This document shows, one piece after another, positions 39,152-45,523 of a stretch of DNA of 64,000 bases (its first letter is position 1; each line of letters begins with the position of its first letter). Source of the stretch: Candidatus Zixiibacteriota bacterium (GTDB taxonomy: Bacteria; Zixibacteria; MSB-5A5; DSPP01); contig JAKEHY010000022.1 of the NCBI GenBank assembly GCA_022614805.1, positions 1-64,000 of the forward strand, in the 5' to 3' direction. The notes under the pieces were generated by a model, which was not told the origin of the DNA, did not search any database, and worked only from the letters and a program-made list of their open reading frames with translations. The position numbers and the translations under genes are program-made.

Positions 39152-41509
39152 ATGCAACAAGATATACGAGGAAAACCGGCGCTAACGATACTTCTCATCC
39201 TGCTGTCAGCTTCACCCGGCTTTGCCTTCCAGCCGCTTTTTGACACTTGGATGAGCTATGATGTAGGGAGTAGTCCTTACTATACCTGCGCGGCCGATTT
39301 GGACGGGGACGGGGACCCGGATTTGGCCGTGGCAATTAGTGGCAGCCACTCCGTTTCAATCTTGAAGAACAGCGGGGACGGGACTCTTGCCGCCAAAGTT
39401 GACTACGGAACCGGGGGCGGCCCTCGCTTTGTTTTTGCTTCCGATTTGGATGGGGACGGGGATTCGGATTTGGCCGTGGCGAATTATGGCAGCAAAAACG
39501 TCTCGGTCTTGAAAAACAACGGGGACGGGACTTTTGCCGCCAAAGTTGACTATGGAACCGGAGGTGGCCCTACCTCCGTTTTCTCCGCCGATTTGGACGG
39601 GGACGGCGATGGGGATTTGGCCGTTGCGAATTACGATAGCAACACCATCTCGGTCTTGAAAAACAACGGGGACGGGACTTTTTCCCCCAAGATTGATTAC
39701 GGGCTCGGGGGCCACCCCCTCTCTGTTATCGCCTCCGATTTGGACGGGGACGGGGATTTAGATTTGGCCGAGGTGAACGACCGCGGCCTCACCGTTTTTG
39801 ACGACAGCGTCTCGGTCTTGAAAAACAACGGCGATGGGACTTTTGCTCCCAAGATTAAATACGGAACCGGGAGCGGCCCTTCCTCCGTCTTTGCCTCCGA
39901 TTTGGATGGGGACGGAGATTCGGATCTGGCCGTGGCGAATTTTAACGGCAACAGCGTCTCGGTCTTAAAAAATAACGGCGACGGGACTTTTGCCGCCAGG
40001 CGCGACTACGGGGCAGGGAGAGGCCCGCGCTCCGTTTTTGCCTCCGACTTGGATGGGGACGGGGATTTGGATCTGGCCGTGGCAAATTTTACCAGCAACA
40101 CCATCTCGGTTTTGAAAAACATCGGAGACGGCACTTTTGCCGCCAAATTTGACTATGGAACCGGGGGAGGCCCGCGCTCCGTTTTTGCCTCCGATTTGGA
40201 CAGGGACGGGGATTTGGATTTGGCCGTGGCGAATTTTAACAGCAACAGCGTCTCGGCTCTGAAGAACAACGGGGACGGGACTCTTGCCGTCAACGATGAC
40301 TACGGGGTGGGAAGCGGCCCTACCTCCGTATTAGCCTCCGATTTGGACGGGGACGGGGATGGCGACTTGGCCGTGGTCAATCAGGGCGGCAGCAACGTAT
40401 CGGTCCTGAAGAACAACGGGGACGGGGCTTTTGGCGCCAAGTTTGACTACGGCGTGGGAAACTTCCCGAGCGACGTCTTCGCCTCCGATTTGGACGGGGA
40501 CGGGGATGGTGACCTGGCCGTGGCCAATCAGGGCGGCAGCAACGTATCGGTCCTGAAGAACAACGGGGACGGAACTTTCGCCGCCAAAGTTGACTACGGC
40601 GTGGGAAGTTTCCCGAGTGACATCTTCGCCTCCGATTTGGACGGCGACGGGGATTGGGATTTGGCCGTGGCCAATCTGGCAGGCAACACCGTGTCGGTCT
40701 TGAAGAACAACGGGGACGGGACTTTTGCCGCCAACGATGAATACGGTGTAGGAAGCGGTCCTATTTCTGTTTTTGCCTCCGATTTGGATGGAGATGGGGA
40801 CCGGGATTTGGCCGTGGCAAATTACATCAACAACACCGTCTCGGTATCGAAAAACAACGGGGACGGAACTTTCGCCGCCAAACTTGACTACGGAGCCGGG
40901 TTAAGCCCCATCTCTGTTTTTGCCTCCGATTTGGACGGCGACGGAGATCGGGATTTGGCCGTGGGAAACGTTGATGGCGACAACATTTCGGTTTTGGAAA
41001 ACAACGGGGACGGAACTTTCGCCGCCAAACTTGACTACGGAACCGGGTTAAGCCCCACCTCCGTTTTTGCCTCCGATTTGGACGGGGACGGAGATCAGGA
41101 TTTAGTCGTAGCAAACAGTAAAGCCAGCGCCGTCTCGGTCTTGGAGAACAAAGGGGACGGAACTTTTGCCGTCAAGGTTGACTACGGAACCGGGTTAAGC
41201 CCTACCTCCGTTTTTGCCTCCGATTTGGACGGGGACGGGGACCGGGATTTGGTTGTGACAAAGACTAATAGCGACACAGTTTCGGTTTTAAGAAACCTGT
41301 CTGATATCTGCGCAATCGATAGAGGAGACATGAATGACGACGGCGGCTTGTCGCTGACGGATATAGTCATAATGTTAAACTGCGTGTTTCTGGAAGAGGG
41401 AAACTGCGGCCCCTGCTTGGCCGACGTCAACTGCAGCGCGAACTTGTCTGCGGCTGATGTCGTGTGGGAAATTTACGCCGTGTTCTCGAAAATTCCATTT
41501 CCATGCTGA
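39152..41509 (+). CDS. Secreted FG-GAP/VCBS repeat protein with dockerin-like C-terminus
   Basis: 785 aa. Signal peptide (1-25, ending SPGFAF). Fourteen repeats of about 49 residues (about 45-720), each with the Ca-binding loop DLDGDGDxDLAVAN and SVLKNNGDGTFAAK.DYG; together they should fold as a seven-bladed beta-propeller or two. The C-terminus (about 722-785) is a dockerin-like pair of EF-hand-type loops: DMNDDGGLSLTD and DVNCSANLSAAD, with Cys in NCGPC and VNC. Other C-termini of this type occur at 43925-44130 and 45325-45510. Likely surface or extracellular, Ca-dependent. The tandem units are nearly identical in DNA as well. ATG 39152 lacks a ribosome site. Confidence 0.88.
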   Translation: MQQDIRGKPALTILLILLSASPGFAFQPLFDTWMSYDVGSSPYYTCAADLDGDGDPDLAVAISGSHSVSILKNSGDGTLAAKVDYGTGGGPRFVFASDLDGDGDSDLAVANYGSKNVSVLKNNGDGTFAAKVDYGTGGGPTSVFSADLDGDGDGDLAVANYDSNTISVLKNNGDGTFSPKIDYGLGGHPLSVIASDLDGDGDLDLAEVNDRGLTVFDDSVSVLKNNGDGTFAPKIKYGTGSGPSSVFASDLDGDGDSDLAVANFNGNSVSVLKNNGDGTFAARRDYGAGRGPRSVFASDLDGDGDLDLAVANFTSNTISVLKNIGDGTFAAKFDYGTGGGPRSVFASDLDRDGDLDLAVANFNSNSVSALKNNGDGTLAVNDDYGVGSGPTSVLASDLDGDGDGDLAVVNQGGSNVSVLKNNGDGAFGAKFDYGVGNFPSDVFASDLDGDGDGDLAVANQGGSNVSVLKNNGDGTFAAKVDYGVGSFPSDIFASDLDGDGDWDLAVANLAGNTVSVLKNNGDGTFAANDEYGVGSGPISVFASDLDGDGDRDLAVANYINNTVSVSKNNGDGTFAAKLDYGAGLSPISVFASDLDGDGDRDLAVGNVDGDNISVLENNGDGTFAAKLDYGTGLSPTSVFASDLDGDGDQDLVVANSKASAVSVLENKGDGTFAVKVDYGTGLSPTSVFASDLDGDGDRDLVVTKTNSDTVSVLRNLSDICAIDRGDMNDDGGLSLTDIVIMLNCVFLEEGNCGPCLADVNCSANLSAADVVWEIYAVFSKIPFPC
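39285..41290. repeat. Fourteen direct tandem repeats of about 147 bp within the FG-GAP gene
   Basis: Each unit encodes one FG-GAP blade and carries GATTTGGACGGGGACGGGGA with few changes. High DNA identity between units (for example the two around 40330-40600) suggests recent unit duplication or conversion. Confidence 0.85.
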
Positions 41510-41713
41510 AGTGGAAGAGATACGCTATCCCCAGCTTTGACGAAACAAAGGCTGCGACGGCCTGCCGTATATTATCCGATTGAATGGCAAGGGGTTGCGG
41601 CGCGGTTCGATTTTTTAAACTTTTTTGGGCAAATTTGCGTTAAATTATAGTTGAAGGCCCGGGTGGAGCTTTGAATTAAACCGGAAAAACCTTCAGGAGG
41701 TAGATAAACGAAA

Positions 41714-42568
41714 ATGAACTCGTTCAAAACATTCTTTCTTTTCACCCTTTTGACCCTGCTTTTGGTGGCGATTGGCGGCTACTTCGGCGGCCAGCAGGGA
41801 ATGATATTCGCCTTTGTCTTTGCCGGGCTCTTGAACTTTTTCGCCTACTGGTTTTCAGACAAGATGGCTTTGGCGATGTACGGGGCCAAAAAAGTGGAGG
41901 AAGCCGACCTTCCCCAAACCGAAAAGGACCGGCTTGTGCGCATCACCCGCGAACTGGCCCAATCGGCCCGTTTGCCGATGCCCAAGGTGTATGTCATTCC
42001 CTCCCCCCAGCCGAACGCTTTTGCCACCGGCCGGAACCCCGAGCACGCTTCTGTGGCGGCGACGAAGGGGATCCTGCAGCTTTTGAGTGACGACGAGTTG
42101 GCCGGGGTGATGGCCCATGAGCTGGCCCACGTCAAAAACCGCGATATTCTGATTGCCAGCGTGGCCGCCACCATCGCCGGGGCGATTATGATTTTGTCCC
42201 GAAGCGCGATGTTCTTCGGCGGCGGCCGGGACAACAACCGCGGCGGCAATCCCATCGTGATGATTTTGCTTCTGATTCTGGCTCCGATTGCGGCAATGCT
42301 CGTGCAGATGGCGATTTCCCGGCAGCGCGAATTCGGAGCGGATGAGGGAGGAGCCAGAATTTCGCACAAGCCTTTGGCCCTGGCCGAGGCGTTGAAGAAG
42401 CTGCACAGCGGGGTCCAACGCCTGCCGATGCAAAACGCCAACCCCGCCACCGCCCATATGTTCATCGTCGCCCCCTTTTCCGGCAAGCAGGCGTTGAGAC
42501 TTTTCTCCACTCACCCGCCCGTGGAAGAGCGCATTGCCCGGCTGTATGAGTTGGCCAAGCATATGTAA
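41714..42568 (+). CDS. htpX: HtpX-type zinc metalloprotease
   Basis: 284-aa inner-membrane M48 protease that degrades misfolded membrane proteins. Two N-terminal helices (about 7-25, 30-50), zinc motif HELAH (135-139), two further helices (about 145-165, 178-200), and the third zinc ligand Glu in [13 protein letters not shown]. Other family blocks [20 protein letters not shown] and [11 protein letters not shown] are intact. ATG 41714 follows AGGAGGT at good spacing. A possible promoter (TTGGGC, 15 nt, TATAGT at 41646-41651) lies upstream, and a strong terminator follows. It sits between two secreted dockerin-like protein genes, but a functional tie is not evident. Confidence 0.95.
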
Positions 42569-42578
42569 CACCGTCAGC

Positions 42579-42600
42579 AGGCGAAATTAATTTCGCCTAC
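42579..42600. repeat. Palindrome related to the GTAGGGG family
   Basis: On the minus strand it reads GTAGGCGAAATTAATTTCGCC; arms AGGCGAAA/TTTCGCCT are perfect. The head is GTAGGCG instead of GTAGGGG. It lies just after the htpX stop. Confidence 0.6.
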
Positions 42601-42605
42601 AGAGG

Positions 42606-42638
42606 AAAAAAGCGGGCCGCAAGGCCCGCTTTTTTATT
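42606..42638 (+). terminator. Terminator of htpX
   Basis: A6 GCGGGCC, GCAA loop, GGCCCGC T6: strong intrinsic terminator, usable in both directions. Confidence 0.9.
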
Positions 42639-42782
42639 GGGTAAAATCTCTTCAAACGCTCTCCTAAATCGCAACGTATGAATAATCGAAAGACAACAAT
42701 TGGGAAAACAGCAAAAAAAGTACTAAGTCCATAGGGAGGTATCATTAAGCCTTTTTGCCAAAAAGTCGCTCAAGAGCGTTCA

Positions 42783-44684
42783 TTGCTTCTGGTTGCGGCT
42801 AATGAAAAGAGAACTGCGAAAAACTTCAGTTGTGGGCTTTGGGGTTTGAAAGGGGGATGTAAAAGGTTACATTTCCTATACCTGCTTTTCTTCCTTTTGG
42901 CAAGCACGGCATTTGGAACAGAGCGGGACGGGATAAAAGTGTTGTCTGAAGGAATCGGTAGTCCCCGGTTTGTCTCCCTTCGCAGTCTGGCAGCGGCCGC
43001 CGATAGCTGCGATACCATAAATTATGCCTGCAATCTCACCTTTTTCCATCCGGTTCCGGACGGCTTTGGGAACATTGAAGAAGGGATGCGTTTTGATAAT
43101 GCCGGGCCAAACCCGGTATCGTTGAAACGGGTGCAGGTTCTGCTTTACAACTGGCCGGGCAGTTCCACGGACACCACCAGCAATTGCGTGATAAACGTTT
43201 ACGCAAATGCCAGCCCGGACAGCATCCCGGGGGCGCTTTTGGGCAGCATTACCATTCCGAATCACGTTCTTATCGGTGCCAACTGGCCCCCTAACGGCGT
43301 CCTTCAGGTGGGGGTCGATTTTTCGCCAAACAATCTTACCTTCGACCCCAACGCCCGCTACCATATCGGCGTGGAGTCAAACGGTCCCGGGGAACTTAAC
43401 GTGCTTTTGGATAACGGAAATCCTTGTGCTTCCAATCGGTGGGTGGAGGAGGATGCCTTCGGCTGGCATGTGGTAAACGGGGCCTTTCCGGGCAATCCCT
43501 ATAACGTGCACATTTACGCGGAAGCCTGTGCGGCCAACCCCAATCAGCCGCCCGTAATTGTCAACTGCCCACCTGTCGATACGGTCAACCTTGGTGAAAC
43601 TGTTACTTATCAATTTCAAGCCCAAGATGACGGCCTTCCCGGCGGGCCGCTAATCTGGCGGAAACTGTATGGGCCGGGTTCATTGGATTCACTTACAGGG
43701 CAGTTTTTTTGGATACCCCAAGTTGAAGATGCGAGATTTGGTGCAGTGGAAGTGGCAGTTAACGATGGGGAGTTGTTTTCCGAGCCCTGTTGGGCTTTTT
43801 TCGACCTTAAAATAGACGACTGCAACCAAAATGGTATAGCCGACTCTATTGACATCGGAACTGGGACAAGCCGGGACTGCGATACGTCTGGGATACCGGA
43901 CGAGTGTGAATTTAGATTTGTCGCGGGGGATGTGGATTCTTCGTCACAGGTTGACCTCGCAGATGTTCAATATCTGGCGGATTACATTTTTAAATCGGGG
44001 CTCTGTCCGGATGGGAGTGGCTACAGTGGCGACGTAAATTGCTCGCGGTCGGTAGGTCTGGCAGACGTAGTTTACCTTGCAAAATACGTCTTCCAGGGCG
44101 GTCCTGAACCCTGTGATGCTTGCCAAATCGCCTACCCGACGTTGGCCGGTCTTTGCCTCGGCTATCAAGATAAATCAACGCTGTATTTAGACCCCATAGA
44201 CACCGGGCCAAGTGGCCAGAATATTGACATTACAGTCGACGACGACTTCTACGTCTTCCAAGGTGCCCACGAATTCACAAATGTTAAAGAGCTGATAGAA
44301 GCAATTTGCAAAAAGAAGGAGAAGCTAAAACGTCAAATCAGAGTTCTGGTAGATACCCATGGGATAAAGGAAGGCGGGACCATATTAGTCGGGACCGCCG
44401 AACCCAAAGATGCGAAAGGTGGGACTGGTGATAATGGCGACTTTGCCGGTGTCACTAAGCTTGATAAAGACAACGCCCAAGCTTTTGCCGACAAGATAAA
44501 GGACAAAGTGGAGACTATAACCTTCGTTGCCTGCAATGCTGCCAAAGGGGAAGACGGAGCGGCACTCCTGGAAGCGATGGGTAGCGCAGAACTCACGGTA
44601 TGGATGTTTGATGGGGTGGTCTGTAGCAGCGCCAAAGGTTTCGCCCCTGAAAAAGATTCAAATATGAAGTGTGATGCGGACTAA
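42783..44684 (+). CDS. Secreted modular protein: dockerin-like pair plus putative clan CD-like His/Cys domain
   Basis: Up to 633 aa. After a signal peptide (hydrophobic core about 29-42, cleavage near AFG) come a beta-rich region (about 70-250), an Ig/cadherin-like domain (PPVIVNCPPVDTVNLGETVT onward, about 257-345), a thrombospondin-3-like Ca segment (DCNQNGIADSIDI, IPDECEF), a dockerin-like pair (GDVDSSSQVDLAD, GDVNCSRSVGLAD, about 382-445), and a C-terminal domain of about 180 residues. In the latter, strand-His IRVLVDTHG (His codon 44358-44360) and strand-Cys ITFVACNAAKGEDGAALLEA (Cys codon 44532-44534) match the order and spacing of caspase/CHAT/DUF4347-like folds. Start unresolved: TTG 42783 or 42846; the strong site AGGGAGGT (42733-42740) precedes only ATC/ATT in this frame. 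Confidence 0.75.
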   Translation: MLLVAANEKRTAKNFSCGLWGLKGGCKRLHFLYLLFFLLASTAFGTERDGIKVLSEGIGSPRFVSLRSLAAAADSCDTINYACNLTFFHPVPDGFGNIEEGMRFDNAGPNPVSLKRVQVLLYNWPGSSTDTTSNCVINVYANASPDSIPGALLGSITIPNHVLIGANWPPNGVLQVGVDFSPNNLTFDPNARYHIGVESNGPGELNVLLDNGNPCASNRWVEEDAFGWHVVNGAFPGNPYNVHIYAEACAANPNQPPVIVNCPPVDTVNLGETVTYQFQAQDDGLPGGPLIWRKLYGPGSLDSLTGQFFWIPQVEDARFGAVEVAVNDGELFSEPCWAFFDLKIDDCNQNGIADSIDIGTGTSRDCDTSGIPDECEFRFVAGDVDSSSQVDLADVQYLADYIFKSGLCPDGSGYSGDVNCSRSVGLADVVYLAKYVFQGGPEPCDACQIAYPTLAGLCLGYQDKSTLYLDPIDTGPSGQNIDITVDDDFYVFQGAHEFTNVKELIEAICKKKEKLKRQIRVLVDTHGIKEGGTILVGTAEPKDAKGGTGDNGDFAGVTKLDKDNAQAFADKIKDKVETITFVACNAAKGEDGAALLEAMGSAELTVWMFDGVVCSSAKGFAPEKDSNMKCDAD

Positions 44685-44764
44685 CAGTGCACTCGACGTA
44701 CCGACGTGGCATGGGGCCACCGACAAATGGCTAATGGTCACGTGTGCCTAAGAAGGTGGGGATA

Positions 44765-45523
44765 ATGAGACTATCCAGAGTAGCTGCGATGATGGCATTG
44801 AGTTTGGGGTTAGTGGAAGTTCCCTGTAAAGCCCAAAGCGCGATTGATACGGTTCGGTTTACGGATGTCTCCTTCTTCGATAGCACGGTAGAGTGGAATA
44901 TCTGCGATGCCTCCTCCGGAGTCGTTTCGGTATCTTTGTATAATGATGAATGGCTTGCAGGGATTGTGGTACCCTTTCAGTTTAGCGACACAATCGTTAA
45001 TATAGATTCTATTTCTTTCGCGGCATCGCGCGTTTCAAGCTCTTTGGGTCCAACTGGCACTCTCCTTCCTGACCTCCGAAGTGGTATCATCGGTTTTGTT
45101 GATATTAATCCGCCCGAGTTCGATAGCCTTGCCCCAGGGGACGGATTGATAGCGAGAATTTACTTTACTCAAAGGTCTGGCGTCGGAAACTTTCCAAGTA
45201 CAATTGGTATCGACACAACGGCCTCACTTAACGCGGCCGCACTGGAGGTCGTTACGCCCGAACCACTAGCGAGTACCGTGGTGTCGAAACCCGCATTCAT
45301 TCATCCGGTAGCCTTCAGGGGCGATATGAACGCCAGCGGCAATTATTCGGCCGCCGACATCGTTGCGGAAATCAACTGCGTCTTCTCTCAAACGGGAAAT
45401 TGCTACTTCTGCTATGCAGACATCAACTGCAGTGGAAACTTGTCCGCGGCGGACATCGTGCTTTTGATTGGCCGGGTCTTTAACGAAGTGTGCGGCCCCA
45501 CCTGGTGCGGCCCCTGCCCGTAG
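44765..45523 (+). CDS. Secreted protein with cohesin-like domain and dockerin-like C-terminus
   Basis: 252 aa. Signal peptide (about 1-24). Residues about 35-175 look like a cohesin-type beta-sandwich: VSVSLYNDEWLAGIVVPFQF early, GIIGFVDINPPEFDSLAPGDGLIARIYFTQ late, which is the N-terminal V.V.L.N...L.G..F..., and the C-terminal G.I.F......I..GDG.I..I.F pattern of cohesins. The last 65 residues are a dockerin-like pair (GDMNASGNYSAADIV; ADINCSGNLSAADIV) with Cys in NCYFCYADINC, as in the two genes before it. ATG 44765 follows AAGGTGGGG; GTG 44744 is an alternative. Ends in a Cys-rich tail (CGPTWCGPCP). Low GC compared with the flanks. Confidence 0.75.
   Translation: MRLSRVAAMMALSLGLVEVPCKAQSAIDTVRFTDVSFFDSTVEWNICDASSGVVSVSLYNDEWLAGIVVPFQFSDTIVNIDSISFAASRVSSSLGPTGTLLPDLRSGIIGFVDINPPEFDSLAPGDGLIARIYFTQRSGVGNFPSTIGIDTTASLNAAALEVVTPEPLASTVVSKPAFIHPVAFRGDMNASGNYSAADIVAEINCVFSQTGNCYFCYADINCSGNLSAADIVLLIGRVFNEVCGPTWCGPCP

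Follow-up and report, generated by a model that had tools for sequence, protein, structure and literature searches.

The 64,000-nucleotide stretch of DNA analysed here (the window) lies on a contig, C20, of a Candidatus Zixiibacteriota genome of 2.56 Mb that is 93% complete (hereafter the source genome). Two of the genes of the window, P1 and P3, are quite probably part of a non-cellulosomal cohesin-dockerin system that extends throughout the genome of this Gram-negative Zixibacteriota bacterium. In the mechanism that we propose, more than 50 Sec-exported proteins (propellers, proteins with Ig-like repeats, peptidases and a PhoD-like phosphatase) would each end in a calcium-loop dockerin, and these dockerins, probably braced by two disulfide bonds, would fit into a small number of secreted cohesins. 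The cohesins encoded on contigs C5 and C33 are carried by proteins with type IX tails and a third, on C25, by a free single-cohesin protein. P3, with a cohesin at one end and a dockerin at the other, would serve as an adaptor that could extend the assembly. We infer the physical binding, the assignment of cohesins to dockerins, the surface location and the biological purpose of the system. The features of P1 and P3 are as follows.

39152..41509, plus strand: P1, secreted FG-GAP beta-propeller protein with a C-terminal dockerin, 785 amino acids (open reading frame, ORF)
41321..41506, plus strand: P1 dockerin module of the main type (genome hidden Markov model, HMM, 93 bits; AlphaFold2 model; structural matches)
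44765..45523, plus strand: P3, signal peptide, cohesin and dockerin (ORF; 44765 is the ATG before the signal peptide)
44864..45268, plus strand: P3 cohesin module (profile match, Foldseek, VIA-align, and PF00963 and 2xdh matches of its family)
45317..45508, plus strand: P3 dockerin module of the main type (genome HMM, 90 bits)

In the type I dockerin, an F-hand calcium loop occurs twice, and its ligands are at positions 1, 3, 5, 9 and 12 (PMC4582956). The AlphaFold2 model of the P1 tail, which has a predicted local distance difference test score (pLDDT) of 85.3, retrieved dockerin chains in all of the first 35 rows of a Foldseek search, and VIA-align gave Z scores of up to 11.3 (4dh2_D; root-mean-square deviation 1.4 over 63 residues). 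Judged by this modelled fold of the P1 tail and by the genome HMM, the P1 and P3 tails are type-I-like dockerins. The modelled fold also led us to reject the idea that the tail is itself a type IX tail. P1 begins with a hydrophobic segment, MQQDIRGKPALTILLILLSASPGFAFQ, its propeller is represented by 13 FG-GAP_3 stretches (Pfam, E 3e-116), and its tail has five cysteines and the sequence PFPC directly before the stop codon.

To define the set of dockerins in the source genome, we seeded an HMM with three tails from the window and iterated it on stretches fetched around matches. The search converged on at least 54 dockerin ORFs distributed over many contigs, which answers the call in the earlier note for a search for further copies of the tail. 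Because these ORFs are so widely spread, the three dockerin genes of the window do not form a unit by themselves but are members of one that comprises the whole secretome. The module lies within 15 residues of the C-terminus in 50 of the 54 ORFs, often with the PFPC ending, and most of the modules have the sequence G-D-x-N-x-D-G-x-x-S/T-x-x-D in both repeats. A genome scan with Pfam Dockerin_1 (PF00404) found 29 places, 26 of them above the cut-off of 22.9 bits, with P3 at 22.5 bits. When the proteins of the window were compared individually with Pfam, P3 scored 19.3 bits and P2, the third dockerin protein of the window, 10.7 bits, and P1 was not listed. A crude hydrophobicity scan identified signal peptides in 41 of the 54 ORFs, several of the reading frames being incomplete. 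For the proteins that carry dockerins, the Pfam listing consisted mainly of beta-propellers, Ig-like domains and peptidases (S8, M4, M6 and C11) and also contained a PhoD phosphatase and a GSDH domain; it covered all but the three lowest-ranked families in each of two sets. The listing included no glycoside hydrolase, in agreement with the earlier proposal that the complex is not tied to polysaccharide breakdown. By the features tested, the system is not a cellulosome.

P3 itself had no cohesin match in Pfam, a search of its sequence against PDB sequences gave no match, and P3 alone as a query found no relatives on the genome contigs. In Foldseek, the AlphaFold2 model of the domain matched cohesin-bearing chains in all of the top 19 rows (best 5lxv_A, E 4.7e-4), and VIA-align superimposed it on 6kgc_A, a Clostridium acetobutylicum cohesin, with Z 10.5 and a root-mean-square deviation of 2.9 over 124 residues. 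A profile of the P3 family, built from 23 members, had a single match in the PDB: 2xdh, a non-cellulosomal cohesin of Archaeoglobus (E 0.17). Two of ten relatives tested passed the Pfam Cohesin cut-off (PF00963, 24.1 bits), namely L092 with 30.5 bits and L074 with 27.0 bits. Its modelled fold and these family profiles identify the domain (44864-45268) as a cohesin. The earlier note had read it in this way and had allowed that it might fold as something else, an alternative that the structural matches, the best of which were cohesins, did not bear out. Diverse cohesins varied too much for their alignments to serve in pattern scans, and a subset of three sequences was used instead; it recovered four loci, three of which are named Candidatus Zixiibacteriota (metagenome-assembled genomes).

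The source genome has four cohesins of the P3 family, on C5, C20 (P3), C25 and C33. The C5 and C33 proteins have a Por_Secre_tail, the C25 protein consists of a single cohesin with a lysine-rich end, and P3 has no type IX tail. Our search for type IX components covered SprA and Por_Secre_tail; the source genome contains a SprA homologue of 2193 amino acids that scored above the cut-off, as well as 35 Por_Secre_tail matches. Surface anchoring would proceed through the type IX tails of the C5 and C33 proteins. Dockerin modules are found less than 1 kb from the cohesin genes of C5 and C25. In a second genome of the same genus, G001, the C5, C25 and C33 cohesins are conserved, and those of C5 and C25 again adjoin dockerin genes. 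No multi-cohesin scaffoldin with a carbohydrate-binding module (CBM) was found, each of the four P3-type cohesins being single, and divergent cohesins (family D) could have escaped this search. PF00963 itself matched two places in the source genome, one per protein and both below the cut-off, and the links of cohesin-like domains on C15 and in L063 to the P3 family, as judged by profile comparison, were only weak.

Two adjacent ORFs on C15 of the source genome (L030:1645-6885 and L030:7062-7961) match Pfam Cohesin weakly and end in type IX tails, and the first also contains a dockerin-like stretch, perhaps of a second specificity class. L016:3312-9736 on C25 and L024:4172-6722 on C18 are tandem arrays of secreted proteins in which a domain of approximately 170 residues ('DPRDSVILESK..TNKDSL') is combined with a dockerin. 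Comparison of this domain with the cohesin family by hhalign gave 72% probability over a short stretch only, and the array products may be divergent cohesin-dockerin proteins.

We scored 110 Candidatus Zixiibacteriota genomes, each at least 80% complete, for the P3-type cohesin and the dockerin. Both modules were present in 105 genomes and neither in four; one genome had the dockerin only, as one marginal match, and none had the cohesin only. The hypergeometric probability of this distribution, 106/C(110,5), is approximately 9e-7.

Recognition by type I dockerins depends on positions 10, 11, 17, 18 and 22, in a numbering that starts at the glycine preceding the first calcium ligand (PMC4582956), and positions 10 and 11 are also named as recognition positions elsewhere (PMC8063739). 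When 54 tails of the source genome were compared with 33 of G001 over 62 alignment columns, the largest difference was at position 10 of repeat 2, which is Ala or Gly in the source genome and Pro in G001, and recognition positions 10, 17 and 18 accounted for five of the six strongest columns (hypergeometric p 2e-4). Among 20 reciprocal-best ortholog pairs, repeat-2 position 10 changed from Ala/Gly to Pro in 14 and in the reverse direction in none, the direction being that of the source genome versus G001 only and not of ancestral versus derived. At position 10 of repeat 1, the same change was seen in about 9-10 of the 20 pairs, again with none in reverse; in one of the pairs, L056/L138, the dockerin compared for this repeat is the incorrect one of two. 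The background frequency of Ala/Gly to Pro, taken from the non-dockerin parts of twelve of the 20 pairs, was 15 of 1144 (1.3%). The concerted switch indicates that dockerin position 10, as read from these alignments, has co-evolved with a shared receptor. In L138:1-1734 of G001, the orthologue of L056:5386-7527, a second dockerin of the G001 type stands behind the one that matches the source-genome tail.

One alternative is that gene conversion among the paralogous tails of each genome, rather than co-evolution with a receptor, made the contact residues uniform. The tails within a genome are indeed very alike, and some lie in tandem arrays. The change, though, is concentrated at the contact positions rather than spread over the module, and the ortholog pairs L020/L147 and L013/L116 keep their idiosyncratic linker and helix residues while position 10 has switched. 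Whole-module conversion is therefore not a simple answer, and we consider this explanation quite improbable.

It is also conceivable that the C-terminal module is an export sorting or processing signal, analogous to a type IX tail, that binds no cohesin. Such a signal would account for a module that is nearly always at the extreme C-terminus, occurs once per protein and is attached to unrelated cargo, as well as for the finding that none of the relatives' ORFs has both the module and a type IX tail. It would not account for a module that folds as a type I dockerin, that is internal in P2, whose cohesin-contact positions change in concert between species and whose occurrence across the phylum coincides with that of cohesins; moreover, a type IX system with tails of its own is already encoded in the genome. 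The earlier note had raised the possibility that the tails are mere sorting signals; the concerted change and the phylum-wide co-occurrence make it very unlikely.

A distinct scenario retains cohesin binding and gives it another role. The dockerin could be a ticket for export or surface retention that acts in trans: cohesin proteins with a type IX tail would carry dockerin cargo that has no such tail, or hold it at the outer membrane. In that case, the recognition residue of the whole secretome would have been re-keyed in concert within the genus because dozens of unlinked cargo genes share few receptors. We regard this scenario as doubtful.

Several observations weigh against the genome-wide cohesin-dockerin system as we propose it, or against the place of P3 within it. 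The P3 cohesin model is of low confidence (pLDDT 51.7, from a five-sequence alignment). The genomes that lack the modules belong to only two families, so that at most two or so independent losses underlie the co-occurrence. The proposed system does not by itself explain the passage of dockerin cargo across the outer membrane when that cargo has no type IX tail. Between the source genome and G001, the cohesin domain of C33 has hardly changed, which makes it an improbable receptor for the tails that have switched; those of C5 and C25 are likelier candidates. Finally, no orthologue of P3 was found in G001, which has three cohesins of the P3 family; P3 therefore looks like a lineage-specific adaptor.

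The remaining features of the interval are these.

41714-42568, plus strand: HtpX/M48 membrane protease gene, between P1 and P2
42783..44684, plus strand: P2, secreted protein of 633 amino acids with an internal dockerin (ORF from a TTG start)
43923..44114, plus strand: P2 internal dockerin module (genome HMM, 53 bits)

HtpX was considered as a member of the system and rejected; it is a conserved housekeeping protease without a dockerin and probably an unrelated neighbour. P2 and P3 are on the same strand, separated by 60 bp when measured to a longer GTG frame of P3 and by 80 bp when measured to the ATG at 44765. The P2 module is followed by 189 residues before the end of the protein, and a weak phmmer match connects it with 8x39, a solved double-dockerin module (E 0.038). 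Positions 10-11 are Leu-Ala in both of its repeats, as opposed to the usual Ala-Ala or Gly-Ala; in P3 they are Ala-Ala in both repeats, and in P1 Leu-Thr in repeat 1 and Ala-Ala in repeat 2. By these residues, the P2 dockerin is of a different predicted recognition type; unlike it, those of P1 and P3 are typical members of the set found across the genome. No Pfam family other than the dockerin was matched in P2. Its C-terminal part (44139-44681) contains 'VLVDTHG' and 'ITFVACNAAKG', which resemble the His/Cys dyad of clan CD cysteine peptidases, with no Pfam match.

Two alternatives concern P3 alone. One is that the tails are bound mainly by the C5 and C25 cohesins and that the P3 cohesin serves another class, for example the Leu-Ala type of P2. 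The adjacency of the C5 and C25 genes to dockerin genes, which recurs in G001, would fit this arrangement, as would the diverged, species-specific character of the P3 cohesin and the position of P2, with its unusual dockerin, just upstream of P3. The P3 cohesin is, on the other hand, a member of the same family as those of C5, C25 and C33, and we consider the arrangement possible, although somewhat unlikely. The other is that P3 binds itself head to tail and polymerizes into a fibre rather than serving as an adaptor for cargo. P3 has the one cohesin and one dockerin that a fibre would need, with recognition residues of the main type in both repeats. Adaptor scaffoldins that combine a cohesin with a dockerin, however, usually have a dockerin whose specificity differs from that of their own cohesin, and a fibre seems improbable to us.

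The tails carry a second mark in addition to their contact residues. The earlier note had described three proteins with a two-loop module, the first of them a propeller, and this was borne out by the ORFs, the FG-GAP matches and the HMM scores. It had also described the same module and cysteine pattern in all three. The pattern INC..GNCxxC..DxNC..C is indeed common to the P1 and P3 tails; the P2 module, which is internal and lacks the helix-1 cysteine, departs from it. Among the tails of the source genome, the helix-1 and linker cysteines were both present in 35, both absent in 13 and mixed in six (p 2e-7), and their co-occurrence was also seen in G001 (p 9e-4). The loop-2 and C-terminal cysteines, in strict columns, were both present in 47 tails, both absent in five and mixed in two; looser windows gave p 2e-4, and in G001 nearly all of the tails have both, so that the comparison there is uninformative. 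The tails are related to one another, and these p-values therefore overstate their independence. Because the four main cysteines co-vary as two pairs, tails that have them probably form two disulfides, one between the helix-1 and linker cysteines and one between the loop-2 and C-terminal cysteines. An extra linker cysteine (CxxC) occurs in the P1 tail and in approximately one third of the other tails, leaving P1 with five cysteines, one of which has no obvious partner.

The pairing of cohesin with dockerin is usually regarded as belonging to the cellulosome, and its occurrences elsewhere are scattered. In the present case, both modules occur in 105 of the 110 genomes sampled from a single uncultured phylum; the dockerin marks secreted proteins by the dozen in each cell, and the pair seems to be connected with type IX tails. 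The difference between congeners at one contact residue in many unlinked genes amounts to a natural experiment on the re-keying of an interface throughout a network, and the cysteine-braced tails, should they be confirmed, would provide protein assembly with new parts that are orthogonal and stable to oxidation.

Our search of the open literature found no relevant paper naming both Zixibacteria and dockerin, and non-cellulosomal cohesin-dockerin systems are already described. The hypothetical planctosome of the freshwater Planctomycetes Nemodlikiaceae is non-cellulosomal and, in the portions of its description drawn on here, comprises dockerin-bearing peptidases, a dockerin-cohesin adaptor and a cohesin-bearing anchor (PMC6461901). 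P3 shares the adaptor layout, and peptidases carry dockerins in both. As presented in those portions, the planctosome anchor is a lamin-tail/P-domain protein, whereas here type IX tails are found; its components are few as compared with at least 54 dockerins; and cysteine-braced tails are not mentioned in them. Candidatus Stygibacter (Cloacimonadota) has a cellulosome-like complex in which the scaffoldin is anchored by a type IX C-terminal domain (PMC8542988). It too is Gram-negative and has C-terminal dockerins on secreted peptidases, and also on glycosidases, but its single scaffoldin of 3,755 amino acids has tandem cohesins and CBMs, whereas here there is one P3-type cohesin per protein and neither a glycoside hydrolase nor a CBM among the cargo families listed. 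ANME archaea likewise have many dockerin proteins unrelated to cellulose, in their case in an S-layer context with scaffoldins of up to five cohesins and ABC substrate-binding cargo (PMC9012536). With the clostridial type I pairs (6kgc, 4dh2 and 1ohz), the system shares the fold of both modules, the calcium-ligand positions, and recognition positions that are the same throughout one species but vary from one species to the next. It differs from them in that no cellulases, CBMs or multi-cohesin scaffoldin of the P3 family were found in the genome, and in the four paired cysteines of its tail.

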